Positions 121 through 25,479 of a stretch of DNA of 25,479 nt are shown piece after piece; position 1 is the stretch's first letter, and every line of letters begins with the position of its first letter. The notes beneath the pieces were generated by a model that saw only the letters and a program-made list of their open reading frames with translations, ran no database searches and had not been told where the DNA came from. The translations under genes were made by a program, and so were the position numbers. Origin of the DNA: a virus; IMG/VR virus record IMGVR_UViG_3300027852_000159, positions 1 through 25,479 of that record; one strand, written 5' to 3'.

Positions 121-324
121 ATGCAAAATTATCGGATTCAAATTAACGAAGTAAATCAAGAGGTGTACGAAACTTTTAAAAAAGTATTAAAGGAAAACGA
201 TGTTCCGACGACCGGATATCAGTCAGAATTAAATGAAATTAAAAATATCATATTTGAAAATGGACTAATGGAATTTAATAAAAACCCTAAGCGTTGGTTA
301 AAGAAATTGCAACAGGAGAAATAA
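121..324 (+). CDS. Hypothetical 67-residue protein
   Basis: An ATG follows a GGGGG-containing ribosome binding site (AAGGGGGAAAC), and the stop lies one base before the next start. The protein is charged and probably helical, rich in Lys, Glu and Asn, with a basic C-terminus (KRWLKKLQQEK). No Cys motif, membrane segment or known domain was seen. It sits at the head of the early operon, just before the Kelch-containing chimera. A small accessory or DNA-binding protein is possible, but that rests only on size and charge. Confidence 0.7.
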   Translation: MQNYRIQINEVNQEVYETFKKVLKENDVPTTGYQSELNEIKNIIFENGLMEFNKNPKRWLKKLQQEK

Positions 325-325
325 T

Positions 326-682
326 ATGAAAATTATCTCAAAAACTAAAGACAGATGTTTAATTGAGGCATACGATGGTAAAATATATGTAGGCACAAAA
401 GATGACAGAGGTTATTTGAAAGGCTGGTGGGCTTATGATATAGCCGAAAATACATGGACACGACTACTTGACTTCGCTGGAACTGCAAGATGTGATGCGG
501 TGGCAAAAGGCAAAATGAAAAAAAGAATAACAGATGAAGAAAACGAGAAAGAAATTGACGGGAATGTTCTTGTCTATCTGGAACAGGTCTATTACTGGAT
601 GGCGCATCTACCAGAAAGGTACGAAGATGATTATGAGACTATTCAAAAAATGATAAAACGTGTTGGAGGGGGTAATGGATAG
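326..682 (+). CDS. Chimeric early protein with one embedded Kelch-type blade
   Basis: 118 residues in three parts. Residues 1-15 (MKIISKTKDRCLIEA) look like the start of a common small phage early protein. Residues 16-60 are one Kelch-like blade with GKIYVGT, GYLKGWWAYD and NTWTRLLDF. Residues 61-118 are charged and helical and contain VYLEQVYYWMAHLPERYE. The middle part aligns without gaps to the tandem blades of the tail protein at 24534-25479: 33 of 45 residues and, by hand count, 101 of 135 bases are identical. The frame is open through both junctions. The 3' end overlaps the nuclease start by 8 bases (ATGGATAG), so the gene is part of a working operon. One blade cannot form a propeller, so a structural role is unlikely. 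That the blade replaced the middle of an ordinary early protein is inference. Confidence 0.8.
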   Translation: MKIISKTKDRCLIEAYDGKIYVGTKDDRGYLKGWWAYDIAENTWTRLLDFAGTARCDAVAKGKMKKRITDEENEKEIDGNVLVYLEQVYYWMAHLPERYEDDYETIQKMIKRVGGGNG

Positions 683-1625
683 ATTCATCGAGGTCGAAGC
701 AGTTGAAGAAATAAAGGCTGATTTCATTGACACGGATTACATTGTTGAGCCTATATATAAGATGAGCCGAGTCGATGTTGGAGGAAGCCGTCATTATATT
801 AAAGAAGATGACGGAGTGTTGACGCAAGCGCCGGCATTCACGACGATAATGAACAAAGTAGCGCCGATAAGTTATTATATCATCCAGTGGCAAATTGAGA
901 AAGGCAAGGAGAAAGCAAAGTGGTTGTTGAAAAATTCTGCTAATTATGGGACGTATTTACACGTACTGTGCGGTCAATATCTGCTTGGTCAATCGATGCC
1001 TTTAAGCAGTGGATTGTTGATGCTGTGTATGCAGGGTTTTTTTGAAGAGAAAAACTTTGACTTTTCAGAATGTCTAAAATGGATGAAGGAAGAAGGCAGG
1101 GATTTGCGAAAAGACATATACGGATTTTCTCGTTTTTGCAGAGACTTTAGCGTGAAGCCACTTGCAATTGAATACCCTATGATGCTCGACGATCGGTATG
1201 CGTGTACGTTAGACATTGTATGTAAAATGACGTACAAAAAGGAGATAATAACTGCCCTGATCGACATTAAATCGGGACAAAAAGGATTCCATGAAAGCCA
1301 TGAGATACAACTTGAAGCACAGAAGCAAGCATGGAATGCTGAGTTTCCCAATCAGCAAATAGACCGTGTTTTTAATTATGGCAGCCACAATTACAGGCTG
1401 CCTTTATCATCGAGAGTAACACCTTATAAGCTGAAAGACCAGACAGATTCTACTAATGCTTACAAGTGGGAGTTATATGTTAAGCTATGGCATGGAGATG
1501 TCAAGAAGCAGACCATAAAGCCTGTCACCGATTTTAACGGGGATAGTATCTTAACGATAGACAAAGAGCCTGAAGATGTCTTTGTGGAAATAGATCATCT
1601 TGATTATGAGGAGGTAGTATTTTGA
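675..1625 (+). CDS. PD-(D/E)XK nuclease, probable phage exonuclease (RecB/Cas4-like)
   Basis: 316 residues from the ATG at 675, chosen because GGAGGGGG lies just upstream. The GTG at 660 in the same frame has no such site. A central Asp sits in TLDIVCKM near residue 180, followed by the ALIDIKSGQKG strand (Asp about 197, Lys about 199) and a Gln helix (HEIQLEAQKQAW). This is the D, D/E-x-K, Q order of the PD-(D/E)XK superfamily, and the spacing is like RecB/Cas4-type and phage exonucleases. The expected role is metal-dependent DNA cleavage or end resection in phage recombination. It overlaps the preceding gene by 8 bases, and the XRE-type gene starts within its stop codon. The fold call is good; the exonuclease role is inferred from the fold and the neighbours. 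Confidence 0.8.
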   Translation: MDRFIEVEAVEEIKADFIDTDYIVEPIYKMSRVDVGGSRHYIKEDDGVLTQAPAFTTIMNKVAPISYYIIQWQIEKGKEKAKWLLKNSANYGTYLHVLCGQYLLGQSMPLSSGLLMLCMQGFFEEKNFDFSECLKWMKEEGRDLRKDIYGFSRFCRDFSVKPLAIEYPMMLDDRYACTLDIVCKMTYKKEIITALIDIKSGQKGFHESHEIQLEAQKQAWNAEFPNQQIDRVFNYGSHNYRLPLSSRVTPYKLKDQTDSTNAYKWELYVKLWHGDVKKQTIKPVTDFNGDSILTIDKEPEDVFVEIDHLDYEEVVF

Positions 1626-1975
1626 GCGAAAGAACAAACAAGAAAAAGAAAAAACAATCGAAAAAGGATGTTGCGATGGGGAAAACCTTGCGCCTTATCC
1701 GAACTATCAAAAATATATCTCTTGCTGAAATGGCTGAAAAACTTGAGATTTCTGTGTCCTATCTATCGGAGGTAGAAAACGGGAAGAAGTCAGTGTCTTG
1801 GTATATATGTTCCAATTATGGAGATATTGGGGAAACAAGTATAAGTTATATAGACAACTTTGCTTCACTGCTTGCTATATATCCTCGAAAAACTATGGAA
1901 TTGTGGCAAAGGAAAGCAATTGAAGCAATGGAACAGGTATCGAGTATAGGAAAAGATCATGGAGAAGAGGTATGA
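1622..1975 (+). CDS. XRE-type helix-turn-helix protein
   Basis: 117 residues from a TTG start overlapping the previous stop (TTGA). GAGGAGG lies about seven bases upstream, which supports TTG. After a very basic N-terminus (many Lys, residues 5-15), the segment LRLIRTIKNISLAEMAEKLE followed by ISVSYLSEVENGKKSVS is a typical XRE/Cro-CI helix-turn-helix. The recognition helix then runs into an extension (WYICSNYGDIGETSISYID) that is longer than usual before the last helices. It lies inside the early operon between the nuclease and the gp3-like gene, with overlaps on both sides. It is therefore made together with the recombination proteins rather than placed at a divergent lysogeny switch. Its target is unknown. 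Confidence 0.8.
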   Translation: MSERTNKKKKKQSKKDVAMGKTLRLIRTIKNISLAEMAEKLEISVSYLSEVENGKKSVSWYICSNYGDIGETSISYIDNFASLLAIYPRKTMELWQRKAIEAMEQVSSIGKDHGEEV

Positions 1976-3003
1976 ACGGAAGAATAAAAAGAGAAGGGGA
2001 AAAAGAAAAAATTGCTATCATCGGGAATATTAAAATAGGCAGGAAGAAAGACAATGGCCTTCCAGAGTCATTAGATTATTTCATCGCTGATAGCAAATAC
2101 AAGGCTCATTTTGATAGAGAATTTCCAGAAAAGCCTAAAAGCATTGAAGTTGTCTTTCTTTCCGACAATATTGAGGACGTATGCTTTGAGAGATACGAGA
2201 TCAGGCAAGGTGCAAAATTGTTTGGTTACGGCAATGGATTTGACTTTTTTGTTTGGGATGAGAAAACAATCGATCCTGTTACCGGCCAATTTGGAGCGTA
2301 TGCGCACAAGACGATTGAGGATGAGCCTGACATAAAGGAAAAGGTCGCAAAGCAGGTCGATGGGAAGTGGGACGAGATTTTAACCATGCGTTTCCTCATC
2401 CCACGCATTAAGGGCATTTGGGGGGTTTGGCAGTTATCCACGAAGGGCGCTCAAAGCTCGATACCGGGAATTGTTGGGGTTTTTGATGCTATTCAAAAGA
2501 TGGCTGGTACAGTCAAGAATATGGCTTTCGATCTATCAGTGAAAAAAGTCAAAAGTCAGAAGCCGGGAACGAAGTCTTTATTTCCTGTGCTTCAATTAGT
2601 TCCGAACTTGTCCCATGAGAACCTCCAGAAGGTCCATGATTTCCTTGACAATGGTATAGAATTCAGGGGAATATTGACAGAGGAAGCAATTGAGCAAATA
2701 GAACAAGCAAAACAGCCTTTGATTGAAGCTCCGGGAAAAGAATACTTGGAAAAGCACGACGAACCCATACGTACTCAGATGGGTCTTTCTGTGGAGAAAT
2801 TTGACGCTATTTGCAAGGCTCTGGATAAAATGCCTAAAAAAATTAAAGACTATTTTTTTGTAAATGACATGGGGGTAGATGCCCAATATGCGTTTTGCAA
2901 AGAAAGGAACGGCGATGAGAAGCTGATGATCGAAGAGATCAAGGCGTGGGAGATTTCAGAGCAGTTTAATCAAATTGATAATAATATGTCTATACCAGAT
3001 TAA
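1972..3003 (+). CDS. Phage protein resembling gp3-like recombination directionality factors
   Basis: 343 residues; the start overlaps the XRE stop as ATGA. The N-terminal half (IGRKKDNGLPESLDYFIADS, then FPEKPKSIEVVFLSDNIEDV and CFERYEIRQGAKLFGYGNG) is recalled as the conserved core of a phage family annotated as recombination directionality factor-like (gp3 of phiC31 type), often left as hypothetical. The central part (MRFLIPRIKGIWGVWQLSTK, then IPGIVGVFDAIQKMAG) is also typical of it. In phiC31 such a protein turns the serine integrase to excision. No integrase is visible here, so that role is not shown, and a general DNA-transaction role beside the nuclease is equally possible. The C-terminus is helical and acidic. 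Recognition is from memory of the family. Confidence 0.6.
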   Translation: MNGRIKREGEKEKIAIIGNIKIGRKKDNGLPESLDYFIADSKYKAHFDREFPEKPKSIEVVFLSDNIEDVCFERYEIRQGAKLFGYGNGFDFFVWDEKTIDPVTGQFGAYAHKTIEDEPDIKEKVAKQVDGKWDEILTMRFLIPRIKGIWGVWQLSTKGAQSSIPGIVGVFDAIQKMAGTVKNMAFDLSVKKVKSQKPGTKSLFPVLQLVPNLSHENLQKVHDFLDNGIEFRGILTEEAIEQIEQAKQPLIEAPGKEYLEKHDEPIRTQMGLSVEKFDAICKALDKMPKKIKDYFFVNDMGVDAQYAFCKERNGDEKLMIEEIKAWEISEQFNQIDNNMSIPD

Positions 3004-16876: not shown

Positions 16877-17347
16877 ATGGAAGATGTTAGTGTTTATTTC
16901 CCGGATTTACCGGAGGTAGATTCGAGTGAGGTTTACGAGTTGCCTGAGGGTTCTGGTTCGGAGCATTTTCGTGGTCGTGGTAGGGTTATTGCGATTGAGT
17001 ATTTTTTGGAGTTAGATGAGAAGGGTTTGTCGCAGTCGCAGATTGCTACTTTATTGGGTTGTAGTAGGATGACGGTTAATCGACGGTTGAAGAAGGCTGA
17101 TTTGGCGGGGTTGCGTCGTTTTAAGAAGCATGAGCCTGATGTTTTGTCTCATCAGCGTCGGCGGATAATTGATAAGATAACGGATGAGGATTTGGCGGAT
17201 GCTGGTTTGCGAGAGAAGGTGTCTTCGTATCAGATGTTGTTAAATTCGGAGCGTTTGTTGACTGATAAGAGTACGTCGAATGTTCACACGGTGCATTCGG
17301 ATGTTGCGAAGTTGAAGGAGTTAGATGCAGGAACGAAGGGAGATTGA
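16877..17347 (+). CDS. terS: Terminase small subunit (helix-turn-helix DNA recognition)
   Basis: 156 residues. The segment KGLSQSQIATLLGCSRMTVN followed by RRLKK is a clear helix-turn-helix, as used by small terminase subunits to find the packaging site. A basic linker and a C-terminal acidic-helical part follow (SYQMLLNSERLLTDKSTSNV). It precedes and overlaps the large subunit, which supports the name. No Shine-Dalgarno sequence lies before the ATG, unlike nearly all genes here. All 11 lysines use AAG and the coding strand is very rich in G and T, which also marks it off from its neighbours. An unrelated regulator in this position is the alternative. Confidence 0.75.
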   Translation: MEDVSVYFPDLPEVDSSEVYELPEGSGSEHFRGRGRVIAIEYFLELDEKGLSQSQIATLLGCSRMTVNRRLKKADLAGLRRFKKHEPDVLSHQRRRIIDKITDEDLADAGLREKVSSYQMLLNSERLLTDKSTSNVHTVHSDVAKLKELDAGTKGD

Positions 17348-18911
17348 GGATCGGTTAGAGCGTAAGCGTGGGGAAAATTTGACGTTTTTTTTTGAGCCTT
17401 ATCCTTGGCAGTTGGGTGCTTTGGGTGTGGTTCGGGAGAAGTCGATAGTTCCTTGTTTGAGTTCTAATAAGATAGGGAAGACTGCGTTTGGATGTAATGT
17501 TGTAATTTCGTGGGTCTTGGGTTATGAGCCTTGGAATTATGTTGATGAGTCGGATGAGGATGCGGTTGAGGTTGAGGGTTATTTTTACAGGAATTCGAGT
17601 TTAGGGATTGAGCCTCCGGTTGATATAGTTATTACTGGTGAAGATTGGAAGATGCACATAGGCCAGACGCTTATCCGTGAGTTAAAGAAGTGGTCTCCAA
17701 AGGGTTGGTATACTACTAAGAAGAACGAGCAGGGCATTCAGTATTTGTGGGAGTGGTTTAATGGTTCGACATTTACTTTAATGTGTTACACGCAGGATGA
17801 TAGTTTATTTGAGAGTTCTTTAGTACATGGTGTTTGGGCTGATGAGCCGATACCTAGATCGAAGTATGTAGGTTTGGCACGTGGTTTGATGTTAACGGGC
17901 GGTAAGACGTTATTGACTTTGACGCCGTTGAAGCAGGCTTGGTTGTTGGATGAGTTTGTGTTAAGTGAAAGGGACGATATAGGTGTAGTTTCGAATTTAA
18001 AGATCACTGATAATACGGATTTATACGAACATGACGTTTTGGAGTTGAGGCGTGGTGGTTTAACGGACGAGCAGGTAGAGGAATTTTTTAATAAACTATT
18101 GTGGGATAGTCCGAAGAATTATGTAAGTGACAGGGGTCGCAGGGCTAAGTCTTATTTGAGGGAGTTAACTGACCTTGATTTGAAGTTGAAGATTTTGAAG
18201 TTTGTGGAGGACATTGATCCTTCTGATGTGGGACCGAGATTATTTGGTGAGTTTAAGTCTTTAGTTGGTCGTATTTTAAAGAATTACGATAGTGGTGTTC
18301 ACCTTGTAGAGCCGTTTGAAGTGCCTACAGACTGGCCTGTTGTTGTAATGATAGATGTACATTTGAGTAAGCCTCAGGCGATAAGTTATTGGGCTGTTAA
18401 TAAGCAGGATGTTCATTATTGTATTAAGGAGACATGGGAGAATTTGTCGGCTGAGGAGGTTGCGGATAGTATTATCCGGAGTAAGAAGGTTAATACGTGG
18501 AATATTGAGAATGTTTTTATTGATCCTCTATCTAAGGGGGATAGCGCTTATATGAGGAATATGTTGGGTTCTGATATTAAGGATTCCTTTACTATTATAA
18601 ACGAGAGGTTAGGTCGGGACGGCATGGTTTTGCGGGTAGCCTCAAAAGATAAGGATTCTGGAATAAGGAATATCCAGTCTTACCTGAAGGGAGTAAACGG
18701 ATTGGCGACATGTTATTTATTTAATAATTTAGAGCGACATATTTATGAAATTTTAAGGTGGGTGTATGATGATGACGGCAAGCCTACTAAGGATTCGGAT
18801 GATCATTTTATGGAAAATTGGTATAGATACACGTTGACAGGCTCTAATTACAGCGATTCTGTTAGAGTTCCGTTACCTGCGATGCCTGATCGCCACTGGA
18901 TGAGCTTATAG
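17325..18911 (+). CDS. terL: Terminase large subunit
   Basis: 528 residues from the ATG after AAGGAG, overlapping the small subunit by 23 bases. The ATPase half has a Walker A variant SSNKIGKTA (residues 46-53), preceded by YPWQLGALGV, and Walker B with its catalytic Glu in GVWADEPIPRS. The nuclease half has VVMIDVHLSKPQAISYWAV and NVFIDPLSKGDSAYMRN, the Asp residues of an RNase H-like fold. It cuts concatemers and pumps DNA into the prohead through the portal. The length is normal for headful-type podovirus enzymes. AAG and GAG are preferred over AAA and GAA, as in the small subunit; later genes are more mixed. Confidence 0.9.
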   Translation: MQERREIEDRLERKRGENLTFFFEPYPWQLGALGVVREKSIVPCLSSNKIGKTAFGCNVVISWVLGYEPWNYVDESDEDAVEVEGYFYRNSSLGIEPPVDIVITGEDWKMHIGQTLIRELKKWSPKGWYTTKKNEQGIQYLWEWFNGSTFTLMCYTQDDSLFESSLVHGVWADEPIPRSKYVGLARGLMLTGGKTLLTLTPLKQAWLLDEFVLSERDDIGVVSNLKITDNTDLYEHDVLELRRGGLTDEQVEEFFNKLLWDSPKNYVSDRGRRAKSYLRELTDLDLKLKILKFVEDIDPSDVGPRLFGEFKSLVGRILKNYDSGVHLVEPFEVPTDWPVVVMIDVHLSKPQAISYWAVNKQDVHYCIKETWENLSAEEVADSIIRSKKVNTWNIENVFIDPLSKGDSAYMRNMLGSDIKDSFTIINERLGRDGMVLRVASKDKDSGIRNIQSYLKGVNGLATCYLFNNLERHIYEILRWVYDDDGKPTKDSDDHFMENWYRYTLTGSNYSDSVRVPLPAMPDRHWMSL

Positions 18912-18920
18912 GAAGGAACA

Positions 18921-19445
18921 ATGAAAGAACAGAACGTATATCTTATGATAGGGATTATAGGCAGCGGGAAATCAAGCTGGGCAAAAGATAAGGCAAAAAA
19001 TAATGATAATACAGTAATAATTAACAGAGATTCTTTGCGCCATATGATAAAAGGCGAAGAATATGTTTTCGATGAAAAATATGAAAGAATGATAAGGTAT
19101 AGCGCCTTCTCTTGTTTGCGACATGCTATTGAAGCAAAATTTGATGTCATAATAGATGAATCAAACATAAGTATGGAAAAAAGAATGGTGTGGCTTGATG
19201 TCATTGAACGTAGTATAACGCCGAATACAGTAAAAGTTACATACGTATGGTGTACCGAAATTGAAAGGAATTTAGATTTACGAATGCAATCGCCTAGAGG
19301 ATACTCAAAAAAGAGTTGGAAAGAGGTTTGTGATAAAATGATTGAAAGTTTTGAGCCTCCTACCATAGATGAGCTTCCTCCAAATGGAGATATTATACAA
19401 CACAAAATACCCGAAACTTTAACAGAAGGAGGGGCATGTTCCTGA
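18921..19445 (+). CDS. P-loop polynucleotide kinase-like protein (AAA_33 / T4 Pnk kinase type)
   Basis: 174 residues after AGGAAGGAAC. Walker A is GIIGSGKSS (residues 11-19). INRDSLRHMI matches the INRDD block of T4 Pnk. DVIIDESNISMEKRMVWLDV matches its ISDTNLNPERR region, and LDLRMQSPRG gives the Arg-containing lid. The expected reaction is transfer of a phosphate from ATP to a 5' hydroxyl of RNA or DNA. The 3' phosphatase domain of T4 Pnk is absent. It sits between terminase and portal and uses AAA and GAA codons heavily, unlike the terminase genes, so it looks like an insertion. No RNA ligase was seen in the window. A nucleotide kinase is the alternative. Confidence 0.75.
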   Translation: MKEQNVYLMIGIIGSGKSSWAKDKAKNNDNTVIINRDSLRHMIKGEEYVFDEKYERMIRYSAFSCLRHAIEAKFDVIIDESNISMEKRMVWLDVIERSITPNTVKVTYVWCTEIERNLDLRMQSPRGYSKKSWKEVCDKMIESFEPPTIDELPPNGDIIQHKIPETLTEGGACS

Positions 19446-19449
19446 TCTT

Positions 19450-21177
19450 ATGAATTTAGAGGAAATGAGAACTAATTACAAGACCTCTGTTGATGGCTGG
19501 CGCCATGTTTACGAGGCTTATGCAGAGGATATGAAGATGGTTTATGATATTGACGATGCTTATTGGCCTGCTAATGTCGTAGAAACCAGAGGTAAAAATC
19601 GTCCTCGAATTACTGTTAATAAACTTTTGAAGTTTGTCAGGAGTTTGCGTAGCAATCAGCTTATTAATCAAGCCAGTATGAATGTTATACCGGCAGACGC
19701 AGAGGGTAGTAAAGAAGTTGCTGAGATTTACGATGGTTTGATAAGGCAAATTGAATATTCCTCAACATCTTCGACTGCGATTGATACTGCTTTTATGAAT
19801 GCCGTGTCAGGTTCGGTGGGGTTTTTGAGATTAGACACTGATTTTGTAAAAGGGACTTTCGACCAGGAAATTGTTATTAAGCGGATAATCAACGTCCCTT
19901 CTGTTCACCTTGACCCTTCGGCTGTTGAGTTTACATATAGCGATGGTAAATGGGGGTTTATTGAGACTAGTTATACTGAGGATCAGTTTGAGGCGGAATG
20001 GCCGGATGCAGAAAAGAAGAATTTTGAACAGTTAGGGACTAGTAAAGACTATGGAGACTGGTTTTCAAAAGATACCGTCAGAATTGCTGAGTATTTTTAT
20101 AAAGATTTTTTTAATAAAGAAATAGCGCAAGTAATGGACGAGAATGGTATTATTAGCATCGTGGAGGTCACAAAGGAAAATCCTCTTAGTAGGATTAAGG
20201 AGTTTTTTGAGGTATTGCAAACTCGTAAATATAGAGATTATAAGGTTAAATGGGCTAAGGTTAGTGGGGCAGAGATTTTAGAGGAAGGTGTTTGGCCTGG
20301 GTCTAGTATACCGATAATCCCTGTCTTCGGTGACGAGGTTGTTGTAGATGGGAAAAAGCATTTTGAATCTTTGATTAGAGGGGCTAAAGGGTTAAGCCAG
20401 ATGTATTCATATTGGGCGAGTGCAGCGACGGAGAATGTAGCGCTAACTCCTAAAGCTCCTTTTATAGTAGATCATCGAGAGGTTAAAGATTATACGGGCG
20501 AATGGGACGAGGCTCATCTTACGAACCGCATGTATATGCGATATAACGATATAGGGCTTGGTAGACCCCAAAGGCAAACACAGACGACTATACCTGCGGG
20601 TATAATGAGCATGATGCAGACTACAGCTAACGACATAGAAGACTATCTAGGTAAGTATGAGTCTAGTAAAGGACAAACCTCTAACGAGAGAAGCGGAAAG
20701 GCTATTGAGGCGAGAATTGAGCAGTCTGATAAAAGCTCTCATGTTTTTGTAGATAATGCATTGAGATCACTAATGTATTTAAATCAGCAGATAATTGAGA
20801 TTATTCCTATCGTTTATGATACACATAGAATGTTAATGACAGTAGGGGACACAGGGGAGAGTTCGCTGGTTAATGTAAACAGTCCTAGTGTTGATGATCA
20901 TTCCGGAAATGCTGTCATTGTTAATAACTTAAAAGGGAATTATAGGTTAAATGCTAAAATAGGCGTTTCGTATAACTCACAAAGAGAAGAGATGGTTACT
21001 CACATGCTTGAATCGATGCAATACGCCCCGAATCATGCTCATATTATTGCGCCTTATATTTTTAAATATAGCGACTGGCCAGGGGCTAATGAAATATATA
21101 ATGAATTAAAACAAGAAACAGAAAGACAACGGAAAATGCAAGAACTGCAAAATACCGGTAGAAATACCGCAAAATAA
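19450..21177 (+). CDS. Portal protein, P22 type
   Basis: 575 residues. PRITVNKLLKFVRSLRSNQL near the N-terminus and the SNERSGKAIEARIEQSDKSS segment in the C-terminal half are typical of P22-like portals, as is ALRSLMYLNQQIIEIIPIVY after it. The P22 portal is about 150 residues longer; here the C-terminal barrel seems short. Twelve copies would form the ring at one vertex through which terminase pumps DNA and to which the gp4-like protein binds. The start lies 13 bases after GGAGGGG at the end of the kinase gene, a rather long spacing. Confidence 0.85.
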   Translation: MNLEEMRTNYKTSVDGWRHVYEAYAEDMKMVYDIDDAYWPANVVETRGKNRPRITVNKLLKFVRSLRSNQLINQASMNVIPADAEGSKEVAEIYDGLIRQIEYSSTSSTAIDTAFMNAVSGSVGFLRLDTDFVKGTFDQEIVIKRIINVPSVHLDPSAVEFTYSDGKWGFIETSYTEDQFEAEWPDAEKKNFEQLGTSKDYGDWFSKDTVRIAEYFYKDFFNKEIAQVMDENGIISIVEVTKENPLSRIKEFFEVLQTRKYRDYKVKWAKVSGAEILEEGVWPGSSIPIIPVFGDEVVVDGKKHFESLIRGAKGLSQMYSYWASAATENVALTPKAPFIVDHREVKDYTGEWDEAHLTNRMYMRYNDIGLGRPQRQTQTTIPAGIMSMMQTTANDIEDYLGKYESSKGQTSNERSGKAIEARIEQSDKSSHVFVDNALRSLMYLNQQIIEIIPIVYDTHRMLMTVGDTGESSLVNVNSPSVDDHSGNAVIVNNLKGNYRLNAKIGVSYNSQREEMVTHMLESMQYAPNHAHIIAPYIFKYSDWPGANEIYNELKQETERQRKMQELQNTGRNTAK

Positions 21178-21200
21178 ATCGTCATAGACGCGAGGTAATT

Positions 21201-21944
21201 ATGGAAAACGAAGAAGTAACCCAAGAAGCAACAGAGGAAGTAACCCAGGAAGTTACCCAAGAAGAACAATCGCTTGAGGAAACTCAAGCGCAAACCGAAG
21301 AACAAGCTCAAGAAGAGCCTGCAAGAAAGCAAACTGCTCAGGAGCGTATTAACGAGATTACTCGTTTATATCGTACTGAACAGAGAGCAAACGTAGAAAA
21401 AGACAGGGAATTAGAATCGTTACGCAATCCACAAGTTTCAGACCCGAACGAAAGGCCGAATTTGGATAATTATGATACGGTTGAGGAGTACGAGGATGAC
21501 TTGTACGAATGGCGTTACGCGAAACAAGAAGCAAGAAGGCAAGACCAACAGCAAAATCTCCAAAGGCAAGGTGAGTATTCAGCGTTGATCGATTCTTTTG
21601 AAGAGAGAGCGCAAGAGGCTCAAAAAACAATCCCGGACTATATCGAGGTTGTATCACAACCGCTTTTTACACCGATTATGAGGGACGTGTTTTTGAAGTC
21701 TGAAAATAAGGATTTGGCTTATGAGATGGGCAAGCGTCCTGCACTCGCGACAAAGATAGCAAAGATGCCGCCTCAGCAACAGTATCTTGAACTTGGCAAG
21801 TTTGAGGCGCGATTTGAAAGTAATTCAAGTTCAAACGCACCGGCTCCATTGAATACATTGGATAACGGCGCAAGTAGGGTAACAAAAAAAGAGCAGGATA
21901 TGGATGCTCAAGAATATTTAGAACATATTAGAAAAGAGGTTTAA
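21201..21944 (+). CDS. Scaffolding protein (candidate)
   Basis: 247 residues directly between portal and coat, the usual scaffold place. The N-terminus is an acidic Gln/Thr/Glu repeat (EEVTQEATEEVTQEVTQEEQ), followed by helices (TAQERINEITRLYRTEQRAN) and a charged, low-hydrophobic centre. The C-terminus (MDAQEYLEHIRKEV) is a short helix of the sort by which scaffolds bind coat protein. No enzyme motif. The name rests on position and makeup, not on sequence identity. Confidence 0.75.
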   Translation: MENEEVTQEATEEVTQEVTQEEQSLEETQAQTEEQAQEEPARKQTAQERINEITRLYRTEQRANVEKDRELESLRNPQVSDPNERPNLDNYDTVEEYEDDLYEWRYAKQEARRQDQQQNLQRQGEYSALIDSFEERAQEAQKTIPDYIEVVSQPLFTPIMRDVFLKSENKDLAYEMGKRPALATKIAKMPPQQQYLELGKFEARFESNSSSNAPAPLNTLDNGASRVTKKEQDMDAQEYLEHIRKEV

Positions 21945-21946
21945 TA

Positions 21947-23113
21947 ATGGCAGATACTTATATAACAAACTCCATGATTTTAGGGATGATGATGGATGTT
22001 TTTGAAAACAATCTCAAGATGGTCCCGTTAGTTTACAGGGGCTATGAGGACGAGTATAACGGCTCTCCCAAGAAAGGATCGAGTTTTAAAATCAAGAATC
22101 CGTGGCTTTTTGAGGTTCAAGACGGCCCGGTAATTGACGTAGTTGATTTAACCGAAACAACTATCGATATGACGGTAACAGACCACAAAGTTATTCCGTT
22201 TACTATAATGGAAACTGACAGGATGTGGAATGTTGATCGGTTTAAGGAACATTACCTAGAGGACGCAATGATTAAGTTGGCGAATGAAGCTGACATGGCA
22301 TTGTGTAATTTATATGCTGATGTTTCGAATTTTGTAGGCACGGCAGGTTCGGCTCCGGCTGCTTTCAGTAATTTCGGGGACGCAGCAGCACGGCTTGATT
22401 TAATGTCAACACCTCCGGCGAGGTCGTTAGTTTGCGATCCTATAGGCGCATGGTCAATGGCTGGAGTCTTAGGGGGACTTAATAACGATGCGTTGGTAAA
22501 GAAGTCAATCGAGACCGGAAAGATAACAGATATTGCGGGACTTGGGTCTTTATATTCGTCTCAGAATATAGCAAAGCATACCGCAGGAACAGGAGCGAGT
22601 TATCAGTCAGACCATGCTACAGCACAAACAGGTTCTACTATCCACATCGATACAGGAACAGGAACATTCCTTACTGGTGATATAGTTACCTTTGCAGGCT
22701 GTAATGCGATCAATCCTGTTAATTATCAAGATGCTGGTCATCTAAGACCATTTGCTGTAACTGCGGATTTCGCAGGTGACGGCGACGGTGACCTTTCAGT
22801 ATCGCCTGCGGTTGTTGCTACTGGGCCGACAAAGAATGTAACTAATGCGATTGCCAACAACCAAGCGGTGACTTTAGTCGCTTCGCACACTGCTAATTTA
22901 GCTTTTCACCAGAAGGCTTTTGCTTTTGTTTGTGTGAAGAATAGCGAATTGCCTGAGACTGCTACTGTAAAGGAGAAGATCACAAGTAATGGTCTGACTA
23001 TGACTTTGACAGCTGGATTCGACATTGTTAATTACAAGCAGACATTTAGGCTTGACATGGTGTATGGAGTCAAAACAATCCGTGGGGATTGGGCTACAAG
23101 AATTTTAGGATAA
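21947..23113 (+). CDS. Major capsid (coat) protein, P22-like
   Basis: 388 residues. The opening (MADTYITNSMILGMMMDVFE), then KKGSSFKIKNPW, and the near-C-terminal HTANLAFHQKAFAFVCV and FRLDMVYGVKTIRGDWATRI form the pattern of P22 coat proteins. These have the HK97 fold with an added insertion domain; the Gly/Ala/Thr-rich middle (near residues 205-300) may be that domain. It assembles with the scaffold into the prohead. It starts two bases after the scaffold stop; the binding site is AAAGAGGTTTAATA. Confidence 0.88.
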   Translation: MADTYITNSMILGMMMDVFENNLKMVPLVYRGYEDEYNGSPKKGSSFKIKNPWLFEVQDGPVIDVVDLTETTIDMTVTDHKVIPFTIMETDRMWNVDRFKEHYLEDAMIKLANEADMALCNLYADVSNFVGTAGSAPAAFSNFGDAAARLDLMSTPPARSLVCDPIGAWSMAGVLGGLNNDALVKKSIETGKITDIAGLGSLYSSQNIAKHTAGTGASYQSDHATAQTGSTIHIDTGTGTFLTGDIVTFAGCNAINPVNYQDAGHLRPFAVTADFAGDGDGDLSVSPAVVATGPTKNVTNAIANNQAVTLVASHTANLAFHQKAFAFVCVKNSELPETATVKEKITSNGLTMTLTAGFDIVNYKQTFRLDMVYGVKTIRGDWATRILG

Positions 23114-23123
23114 GGAGAAGATT

Positions 23124-23336
23124 ATGGCAGTAACATATTTAAGTGATGGAAACGATGATGGCACTTCATTAGGTCAATCTACTACCGACAAAATATCATT
23201 ATATGGAGTCGACCCTATTGTTCAGCCTGCGAGTGCAAATCAGGCGGTATGTGATGACGCCGCCTCGGTAATAGTTCTTGCAAATGAGCTGAGAACTGCT
23301 CTCATCGCTCTTGGTGCAATAAAAGGAAGTGCTTAG
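23124..23336 (+). CDS. Small head-associated protein downstream of the coat gene
   Basis: 70 residues after AAGGAGAAGATT. DGTSLGQSTTDKISLYGVDP and then IVQPASANQAVCDDAASVIV match a recurring pattern of small phage proteins found just after capsid genes (G-x-S-x-x-D-K-I/V-x-x-Y/F-G-x-x-P and a C-terminal ANELRTALIALGAIKGSA). Such sequences also occur at the ends of larger head fibre proteins. A decoration or fibre role is possible. The stop directly abuts the next start. Confidence 0.65.
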   Translation: MAVTYLSDGNDDGTSLGQSTTDKISLYGVDPIVQPASANQAVCDDAASVIVLANELRTALIALGAIKGSA

Positions 23337-24002
23337 ATGGCAACAGCAGACGATTTAATTATCGCAGCTTTTCGCAAGAGTCGTATAGGCAACTCTACCG
23401 TTGCCGATAGAACAGACGCCTTGGAGGACTTGAATAATTTGTTAAGTTCCCTAGGGCCGAAGTTTTTAAATGTTCCTGTCAGCGAGAGCTTTACGCTGAC
23501 TATCGGGACTGCTGAGTACACTATCGGCGATGGTGGAGACTTCAATACTGTAAGACCTCTTGCGATTAAGAATATTTTTTTGAGGAATTCAGACGATTAT
23601 GATTATCGTGTACGTCCTATATCCAATTTGGATTATGTTCGTATCGATGACAAAGCAGTCGAAGGAAGGCCTTATGAGTATTCTTTTATACAAGAATATC
23701 CTCTTGCTAAAGTTATTTTCAATAGAGAGCCCGATGAGGCTTATACGGCATATTTTAAGTTTATTAAGAATTTTGTTGAGTTAGACTCGTTAAATACGAC
23801 TGTAATATTACCGGATGAATATAAAGAGTTTTTGGTTTATAAACTTGCCGTGACTATAGCTGAAAACAGAGGAATTGAGCTTGCGAGGTCGGCTCATGCA
23901 AGGGGTCAGGAGTTGGAGCTGAATATTAGTAGGCTTGTTCATTCAGATATGCCTCCAGAAGCAGAGTTTGATTTTTACGTAGGTTATTATGAATCGGGAT
24001 AA
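23337..24002 (+). CDS. P22 gp4-like tail accessory (portal adaptor) protein
   Basis: 221 residues. ATADDLIIAAFRKSRIGNST near the start, then DALEDLNNLLSSLGPKFLNV, and later FTLTIGTAEYTIGDGGDFNT with RPLAIKNIFLRN are typical of the gp4 family. P22 gp4 binds below the portal ring, closes the head after packaging and carries the tail; it also has a cell-wall hydrolase activity in P22, not evident here. It overlaps the C1q-like gene by 14 bases. Confidence 0.82.
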   Translation: MATADDLIIAAFRKSRIGNSTVADRTDALEDLNNLLSSLGPKFLNVPVSESFTLTIGTAEYTIGDGGDFNTVRPLAIKNIFLRNSDDYDYRVRPISNLDYVRIDDKAVEGRPYEYSFIQEYPLAKVIFNREPDEAYTAYFKFIKNFVELDSLNTTVILPDEYKEFLVYKLAVTIAENRGIELARSAHARGQELELNISRLVHSDMPPEAEFDFYVGYYESG

Positions 24003-24534
24003 GCTTTATCCAAATTTAAACCTTGAAGAAGAAGACTGGCGCAGGTCTATGCTGGAGTTGATCAGAGGGTTGCGTGAGGATACTTACGATAAAATAAACG
24101 AGCCTGTCTCAAGATTCAGGGCAACTCGTGGAACTGTTCAATCAATACCGAATATTATTTGGACAAAGGTACAATATAATACAGAGGACTTTGATAATCT
24201 CGGAGAGTATGACCATGTTACAAATTTCCGGTTTACTGCACAAAAAGCGGGTTATTATCAGGTTAATGCTAGTATACTAACTACCAATATAAGTTTGACA
24301 GTAGACAAATACTGTATGATTGCAGTTTATAAAGATGGGAATAGATTTATCAGTGGTTTTCGGTGGGTGGCACCGTTAACACATTCATTTTATGTACATT
24401 CAGTTTGCAATGGTATGGTTTATTTAACAGCAGGGCAATATTTAGAAATATTTTGCTATCAAGATTCGGGAGCAGCGATTAACATTCATTATGATGAAAC
24501 ATTTAATTGCTTTTCAGTACACAGGCTAAGTTAA
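23989..24534 (+). CDS. Virion protein with a C1q-like beta-jellyroll domain
   Basis: 181 residues. The first 35 are a charged helix (LNLEEEDWRRSMLELIRGLR). Residues about 40-181 look like a C1q/TNF-type trimeric jellyroll: FRATRGTVQSIPN, then FTAQKAGYYQVNASI, CMIAVYKDGNRF, YLTAGQYLEIFCYQDSG and FNCFSVHRLS. C1q-like domains are known in phage and bacterial surface and adhesion proteins, usually trimeric. Its place between the gp4-like and propeller genes suggests a tail or fibre part. The shared TAATG links it to the propeller gene. Confidence 0.65.
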   Translation: MNRDKLYPNLNLEEEDWRRSMLELIRGLREDTYDKINEPVSRFRATRGTVQSIPNIIWTKVQYNTEDFDNLGEYDHVTNFRFTAQKAGYYQVNASILTTNISLTVDKYCMIAVYKDGNRFISGFRWVAPLTHSFYVHSVCNGMVYLTAGQYLEIFCYQDSGAAINIHYDETFNCFSVHRLS

Positions 24535-25479
24535 TGAAATATTTACCTATACCACAGCTTAAAGGACTTGTTAAGGACTATCATCGCCGTATGATAAGTG
24601 ATGACAGGGTCTCGGATTGTGAGAATATCATTTTTAAAGATGGCAAAGCTTCGCGGCGCTGGGGGTATGAGGTTTGGGGTGGTGGCAGTGGCTTGCCATT
24701 AGACGATGAGATTACTCACCTTGCAGTGTACGAGAAAGCGAAAACACAAGATACGTGGATACTTGCCTTTACGCCGAGAGATACTTATAAGTGTGGACTG
24801 AATAGATGGACGCAAATGACTGACTTCGGCGGAACTGCAAGAAGCTATGCGGTTGCAGCGGTATATAATGGTAAAATATACGTCGGTACAGGAAGTAGTG
24901 GTGGTTATTTAAAAGATTGGTGGGCTTATGACGTTACTGGGAATACGTGGACACAATTGCTTGACTTTGGCGGAACTGCAAGACGTGACGCGGTTGCAGC
25001 GGCGTACAACGGTAAAATATATGTCGGCACAGGTTATGTCGGTGAAGATTATACTGATGACTGGTGGGCTTATGACGTTACTGGGAATACGTGGACACAA
25101 TTGCTTGACTTTGGCGGAACTGCAAGACGTGACGCGGTTGCAGCGGCGTACAACGGTAAAATATATGTCGGCACAGGGCGTGATGGCACAGGTTATACTG
25201 ATGACTGGTGGGCTTACGATATAGCTGGGAATACGTGGACACAATTGCTTGACTTTGGTGGAACTGCAAGACGCGACGCTGTTGCAGCGGTGTACAACGG
25301 TAAAATATACGTAGGCACAGGGTATGACGAGGGGGGTCTTACTGATGATTGGTGGGCTTATGACGTTACTGGGAATACGTGGACACAATTGCTTGACTTT
25401 GGCGGAACTGCAAGACGTGACGCGGTTGCAGCGGCGTACAACGGTAAAATATATGTCGGCACAGGTAATGGCATCGGTG
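24534..25479 (+). CDS. Kelch-type beta-propeller tail protein (open at the window end)
   Basis: The ATG at 24534 shares its A with the previous stop (TAATG), and the frame stays open to the right edge (315 codons). The N-terminus (KYLPIPQLKGLVKDYHRRMI, then CENIIFKDGKASRRWGYEVW) resembles the start of P22 gp10-like tail hub proteins. From about residue 91, blades of 48 residues follow, each with NTWTQLLDFGGTARRDAVAA, YNGKIYVGTG and WWAYD. P22 gp10 also has a propeller fold, so a tail hub or receptor-binding role is inferred. The blades are almost identical in sequence except for a patch of 8-9 residues after GTG. Confidence 0.75.
   Translation, partial: MKYLPIPQLKGLVKDYHRRMISDDRVSDCENIIFKDGKASRRWGYEVWGGGSGLPLDDEITHLAVYEKAKTQDTWILAFTPRDTYKCGLNRWTQMTDFGGTARSYAVAAVYNGKIYVGTGSSGGYLKDWWAYDVTGNTWTQLLDFGGTARRDAVAAAYNGKIYVGTGYVGEDYTDDWWAYDVTGNTWTQLLDFGGTARRDAVAAAYNGKIYVGTGRDGTGYTDDWWAYDIAGNTWTQLLDFGGTARRDAVAAVYNGKIYVGTGYDEGGLTDDWWAYDVTGNTWTQLLDFGGTARRDAVAAAYNGKIYVGTGNGIG
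24804..25479 (+). repeat. Tandem 144-bp coding repeat (Kelch blades)
   Basis: TGGTGGGCTTA begins at 24918, 25062, 25206 and 25350, exactly 144 bases apart, so the repeat keeps the frame. A less similar unit starts near 24804 (RWTQMTDFGGTARSYAVAAV). Most of each unit is near-identical even at silent sites. The patch between GTG and WWAYD differs: SSGGYLKD, YVGEDYTDD, RDGTGYTDD, YDEGGLTDD. Silent-site identity suggests recent duplication or gene conversion. A diverged 135-bp copy lies at 371-505. Confidence 0.9.

Follow-up and report, generated by a model that had tools for sequence, protein, structure and literature searches.

Why should a small open reading frame (ORF) in the early region of a phage genome contain a piece that closely resembles the repeats of the tail gene? 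Beta-propellers are thought to arise by amplification of a single blade, and domain swapping is a known feature of phage proteins. The stretch of DNA analyzed here (the window) is a virus record of 25,479 bases, which is linear and probably a fragment. Its packaging genes at 17325-24000 (terminase, portal, scaffold, coat, and a gp4-like gene) are P22-like and are followed by a tail-hub-like gene with an array of Kelch repeats, whereas the early-type block at the end opposite to the tail gene (675-3003; an exonuclease, an HTH regulator, and a Gp3-like recombination directionality factor, with a DnaB helicase further on) is nearest to Bacteroidota phages. A previous sequence-only reading had proposed that a blade of the tail gene is embedded about 24.5 kb away in an early gene, ORF 326-682; this distance holds on the linear contig but only there, the contig ending inside the Kelch array. 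The features considered below are collected in Table 1.

Table 1. Coordinates of the lone Kelch period, the tail array, and the neighboring genes in the window
Feature	Position	Strand	Basis or remark
Small ORF upstream of ORF 326-682	121..324	+	67 aa; without relatives
Chimeric early-region ORF	326..682	+	118 aa; AGGAG ribosome-binding site; codon-frame scores
N-terminal flank MKIISKTKDRCLIE	326..367	+	without relatives; weakly predicted strands
Lone Kelch period E (AYDGKIYVGTKDDRGYLKGWWAYDIAENTWTRLLDFAGTARCDAVA)	368..505	+	homology to tail array
C-terminal flank	506..679	+	58 aa; predicted helical; without relatives
Exonuclease (phrog_298)	675..1625	+	~30-37% identity with its counterparts in Bacteroidota phages and in related IMG/VR contigs
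Gp3-like recombination directionality factor	1972..3003	+	39-45% identical to those adjoining the exonuclease in Bacteroidota phages
Tail-hub-like protein (P22 gp10 / head-closure position) with Kelch propeller	24534..25479	+	cut by contig end
Tail blade T1 (GYLKD loop)	24861..25001	+	103/138 nt identical to E
Tail blade T2	25002..25145	+	101/138 nt identical to E
Tail blade T3 (DIAGNTWT)	25146..25289	+	108/138 nt identical to E
Tail blade T4	25290..25433	+	100/138 nt identical to E

As judged from their sequences, period E and the tail repeats of the same phage clearly descend from a recent common ancestor. An exact recount of the ungapped alignment between 371-505 and 24864-24998 agreed with the 101 of 135 identical bases counted by hand in the sequence-only reading, and the 33 of 45 identical residues were also confirmed (33/46 over the full period against T1). 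This identity is far above that of unrelated Kelch repeats. Within 700-24,400 of the window, the best ungapped 135-mer reaches 57/135 only. When ORF 326-682 was searched by blastn against the whole window, the tail array alone rose above noise, with E-values of 1e-25 to 5e-18 for the best four pieces, and a protein-level search found the four tail blades (1e-19 to 1e-15) and nothing else; the local protein score between E and the tail was 186, with a maximum of 60 among 1000 shuffles. The match runs from the NGKIYVGT strand to the end of DAVA and thus spans one period, as had been claimed, but the unit is permuted and does not correspond to one structural blade. Extension of the match into either flank was no better than with shuffled sequence (p 0.16-0.58), no second Kelch blade was found in the window outside the tail array and E, and ORF 326-682 and the tail protein had no family matches in common outside the blade. 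ORF 326-682 holds one blade, in contrast to the four or more needed to close a ring, and stays below the Pfam gathering scores (14.3 bits vs 21.6 for Kelch_4 and 12.8 vs 20.1 for Kelch_1); the tail gene itself passes the Pfam Kelch gathering score. The Kelch unit is in frame in this early-region ORF, as the earlier reading stated, and the remainder of the ORF shows no Kelch homology; its two flanks, which that reading likened to a normal early protein, have no relatives.

The ribosome-binding site and the codon-frame scores are consistent with ORF 326-682 being a real gene. AGGAG precedes its ATG, and sites of this kind were found at 33 of 42 putative starts in the window versus 28% of random places. 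Such Shine-Dalgarno sites are hence common in the window; their frequent occurrence is unusual for a Bacteroidota host. The codon score of the ORF is best in its own frame and is positive in the N-terminal flank, the blade, and the C-terminal flank alike, and the frame is open across both blade borders without any stop or frameshift. Codon choice of the blade leans toward that of early genes, but not significantly, as 7% of the late-gene windows score equally high. Judging from the position of the ORF, which overlaps the exonuclease start at 675 by 8 bases, we infer that it is expressed early.

The place occupied by ORF 326-682 appears to be a slot that takes in additional genes. In Bacteroidota phages, the gene order is HTH, small membrane protein, and exonuclease, with the recombination directionality factor downstream; in relatives, the exonuclease usually comes directly after a small membrane protein or HTH gene. 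Coding sequence in bases 1-105 of the window corresponds to the last part of a small hydrophobic protein, which may be the counterpart of the small membrane protein in the relatives, albeit with weak similarity, and the slot between this fragment and the exonuclease is filled by ORFs 121-324 and 326-682. In L059, the closest relative in terms of the exonuclease, an HNH endonuclease-like ORF (judged by eye) lies just upstream of the exonuclease gene. Because the relatives thus differ at this position, usually having no gene and in L059 the HNH endonuclease-like ORF, the slot is considered to be open to extra genes. Also, the exonuclease at 675-1625 lacks the ~30-50 N-terminal residues found in its relatives in Bacteroidota phages, and that of L059 is of the short form as well. 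Elsewhere in the window, a D12-type DNA adenine methyltransferase gene (11090-11893) is interrupted by a single in-frame TAA at 11378-11380 with methyltransferase family matches on either side, which may represent a pseudogene, a sequencing error, or something else, and two adjoining small ORFs at 12341-12780 (IEVDGDKTLDFL and LEIDGDKTLDFM) resemble tandem paralogues.

No relative of ORF 326-682 was found among GenBank phages queried with the full, C-terminal, and N-terminal ORF, in IMG/VR searched with peptide patterns and blade DNA patterns, or in 80 exonuclease neighborhoods, 80 portal neighborhoods, and 50 whole virus records. Matches in 395 Bacteroidota genomes were at chance level only, PHROGs, Pfam, PADLOC, and PDB sequences contained no relative of the ORF or its flanks, and a query designed for a possible N-terminal family gave nothing useful. 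No stray single blade in a small ORF was found in three other phages with Kelch repeats, phiERICV, PhiPA3, and D6, the latter two of which were queried with the protein of PhiPA3 only. The sequence-only reading had named as a case against it that all relatives carry the segment in the early gene while their tail gene has none; no relative with the early gene but without a tail array was found in these searches for homologues of the ORF. In the closest packaging relative, L143 (terminase and portal 60% and 49% identical, respectively), the 13 kb that were inspected contained no Kelch match, and the Kelch array is therefore not general in this phage group. The hub-like gene of L143 seems, by eye, to be followed by BNR/Asp-box-like repeats instead of Kelch (L143:9204-11290), suggesting that the tail module exchanges its propeller type.

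Silent and replacement changes had both been noticed in the lone blade, and indeed E differs from the tail consensus outside the variable loop by 16 silent and 11 replacement changes. About 19 replacements are expected under neutrality, and a number as low as 11 was not reached in any of 2000 simulations. Omega between E and the four tail blades outside the loop was ~0.09-0.13 with bootstrap upper bounds of 0.24-0.35; free drift of E over half of the path would give a value near 0.5, and the bounds below it therefore point to protein-level constraint for most of the divergence. Amino acid constraint and the open frame thus support part of the proposal of an old copy that has been kept open; the copy need not be old in ORF 326-682, because the constraint may have acted either there or, before a later capture, in a tail gene, possibly that of another phage. 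Seven residues outside the loop are invariant in T1-T4 and altered in E (including FGG to FAG), and E has a longer branch in an unresolved protein tree of the blades, for which bacterial blades were extracted by HMM; these two features fit a partly relaxed structural demand on E. The identity between E and T3 (78%) is close to that between T3 and T1 (80%), and E would therefore have split off near the base of the present array or slightly earlier.

The model of the tail gene is a Kelch propeller, with blade pLDDT mostly of 55-84 and Foldseek E-values of 3e-11 to Kelch designs and 7e-10 to KLHL12. The single-sequence model of ORF 326-682 is of low confidence (pLDDT 51.5; ~60 in the N-terminal flank) and has strands at residues 2-8, 11-16, 19-25, and 31-38 with helices thereafter; the weakly predicted strands of the N-terminal flank could replace the missing blade strand.

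Several explanations for the lone blade can then be weighed against these results. The sequence-only reading had raised the possibility that E is a reservoir of sequence for converting blades of the tail gene. Such conversion, or its reverse, could be suggested by the combination in E of a GYLK loop as in T1 with DIA as in T3. This pattern is present, but descent from those particular blades is not needed to account for it; WWAYDIA is also found in Kelch proteins of Bacteroidota genomes (L007 and L010), and the mosaic is thus explicable by retained ancestral states. Judging from the exact stretches of 116-120 nt that they share, the tail blades do homogenize with one another, which would favor a reservoir, but no exact run shared by E and the tail exceeds 15 nt, and the mismatches are dispersed, with p 0.41 and 0.64 in the run test. 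Conversion involving E is therefore unsupported, and we consider the reservoir exceedingly unlikely. A template/variable pair of a diversity-generating retroelement likewise does not fit, because the differences are not confined to template adenines, all four bases differing in both copies; no reverse transcriptase was found among the scanned part of the proteins of the window, in which the genome is incomplete. An assembly chimera of tail-repeat reads with an early gene might be suspected from the Kelch array (24861-25479) running off the contig end, where the assembler evidently struggled and where the break is probably an assembly limit due to the long exact stretches shared by the blades. 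The ~25% divergence of E and its short exact runs, however, leave no k-mer for a false join, and the frame is open over both borders, making such a chimera scarcely credible. That ORF 326-682 is the remnant of a larger Kelch gene decayed in place, with one blade still recognizable, could be suggested by KGKM after DAVA, which faintly resembles the next NGKI, and by the loosely alignable N-terminal flank; nevertheless, the failure of the match to extend beyond shuffled levels and the absence of stops and frameshifts, together with constraint instead of decay, render this highly improbable. Alternatively, the lone blade might bind either subunits of the tail hub or the host ligand that the tail propeller recognizes, and so act as a decoy or regulator. 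Its homology to the tail blades and the packing of blade edges expected in propellers would speak for this. Single-blade constructs of WD40 were, however, reported as unfolded and non-oligomerizing monomers, and building blocks of differing blade number gave no hetero-oligomers when mixed (PMC6805158). While WD40 and not Kelch was examined there, it is accordingly unlikely that E forms a propeller or a homo-oligomer or serves as a ready decoy, and we regard the role of decoy or regulator as very unlikely.

Among the three functions raised by the sequence-only reading, a co-opted segment would thus be the best remaining choice. It has to be weighed against a recent, functionless capture from the diverged tail gene of another phage, where the low omega would have arisen, with the ORF simply tolerating the blade. 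Constraint along the path is not assignable to ORF 326-682, the ORF has no relatives, phage proteins often have fragments in common with unrelated proteins (PMC10684548), and young propeller genes often decay (PMC9218822). The frame, the ribosome-binding site, and the codon-frame signal are nonetheless intact over the flanks and the blade, and the blade leans, though not significantly, toward early codon choice; we regard such a capture as unlikely but far from negligible. Our preferred explanation, which we hold at slightly better than even, is the capture of one period from the tail gene followed by its putative use within a small interaction protein. Through illegitimate recombination, the tail-hub gene of the same phage, or that of a co-infecting close relative, would have donated a copy of one Kelch period (~140 bp) to a small ORF that lies in the accessory slot preceding the exonuclease, with transfer from the tail to the early region; the exonuclease and a NinB/Orf-like mediator, also encoded in the window, could provide the recombination route. 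The first two strands of the blade would then pair with the native N-terminal hairpin into a new small beta-sheet followed by the helical C terminus, the remainder of the blade would no longer be used as a blade, and the beta face of the small protein might serve as an interaction surface. As ORF 326-682 was found in one genome, the insertion, its direction, and its age are presumptive. A bolder proposal is that a lone blade, itself unable to close a ring, became through domestication a functional part of a new small phage protein. It would then exemplify how, in nature, a peptide below domain size is put to use in a new fold; in the extreme form of the proposal, the blade is related to the seed whose amplification gave rise to the tail propeller. 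This proposal appears rather improbable to us.

In terms of known systems, the closest comparison is with the domain mosaicism of phage proteins (PMC10684548, Nat Commun 2023), in which a fragment of >50% identity is likewise shared by two otherwise unrelated phage proteins. Here, too, a significant fragment is found in two proteins whose remainders have no detectable homology, but the piece is sub-domain in size, being one blade that is not expected to fold alone, and both copies are in one genome, where they connect a gene of the virion to an ORF of the early region. The tail array also resembles the beta-propellers that Pereira and Lupas (2022, PMC9218822) described as recently amplified and disrupted, in that its blades are near-identical and a stray one of the same kind is found elsewhere. 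The stray fragments in that study were sought directly beside the propeller gene in non-coding DNA, whereas the stray blade here is intact and forms an in-frame part of another ORF ~24 kb away on the contig; we rejected a decaying propeller fragment given the open frame of E, its distance on the contig, and its constraint. Kelch repeat proteins of Bacteroidota (e.g., L016 and L011) and Kelch propellers in PDB have the motifs YIGTG, FGGTAR, and WWAYD in common with the proteins described here, but ORF 326-682 differs from them in its single blade and its sub-threshold Pfam scores. Among short-tailed phages, the nozzle protein gp12 of T7 is a propeller, and propeller-like domains are predicted for gp10 of P22 (PMC6702177). 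The tail gene of the window likewise comes after P22-like portal, coat, and gp4-like genes and would place a beta-propeller in the nozzle or hub of a short tail, but it differs in having a Kelch-type array of near-identical blades. To our knowledge, no early-region copy of a blade accompanies T7 gp12 or P22 gp10.

Fragment sharing between unrelated phage proteins (PMC10684548) and the continual amplification and decay of blades (PMC9218822) are already known. The present case, in which a sub-domain unit lies intact within an ORF that appears unrelated but belongs to the same genome, is a variant of those processes. In the open-licence literature, we found no report of such a case. The lone blade is seen in one genome only, and it is therefore a lead and not a demonstrated principle. 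A constrained single blade in an unrelated ORF, in a phage that also has the amplified array, would be a concrete and testable instance in which pieces below domain size pass between virion and non-virion genes and acquire a new use.
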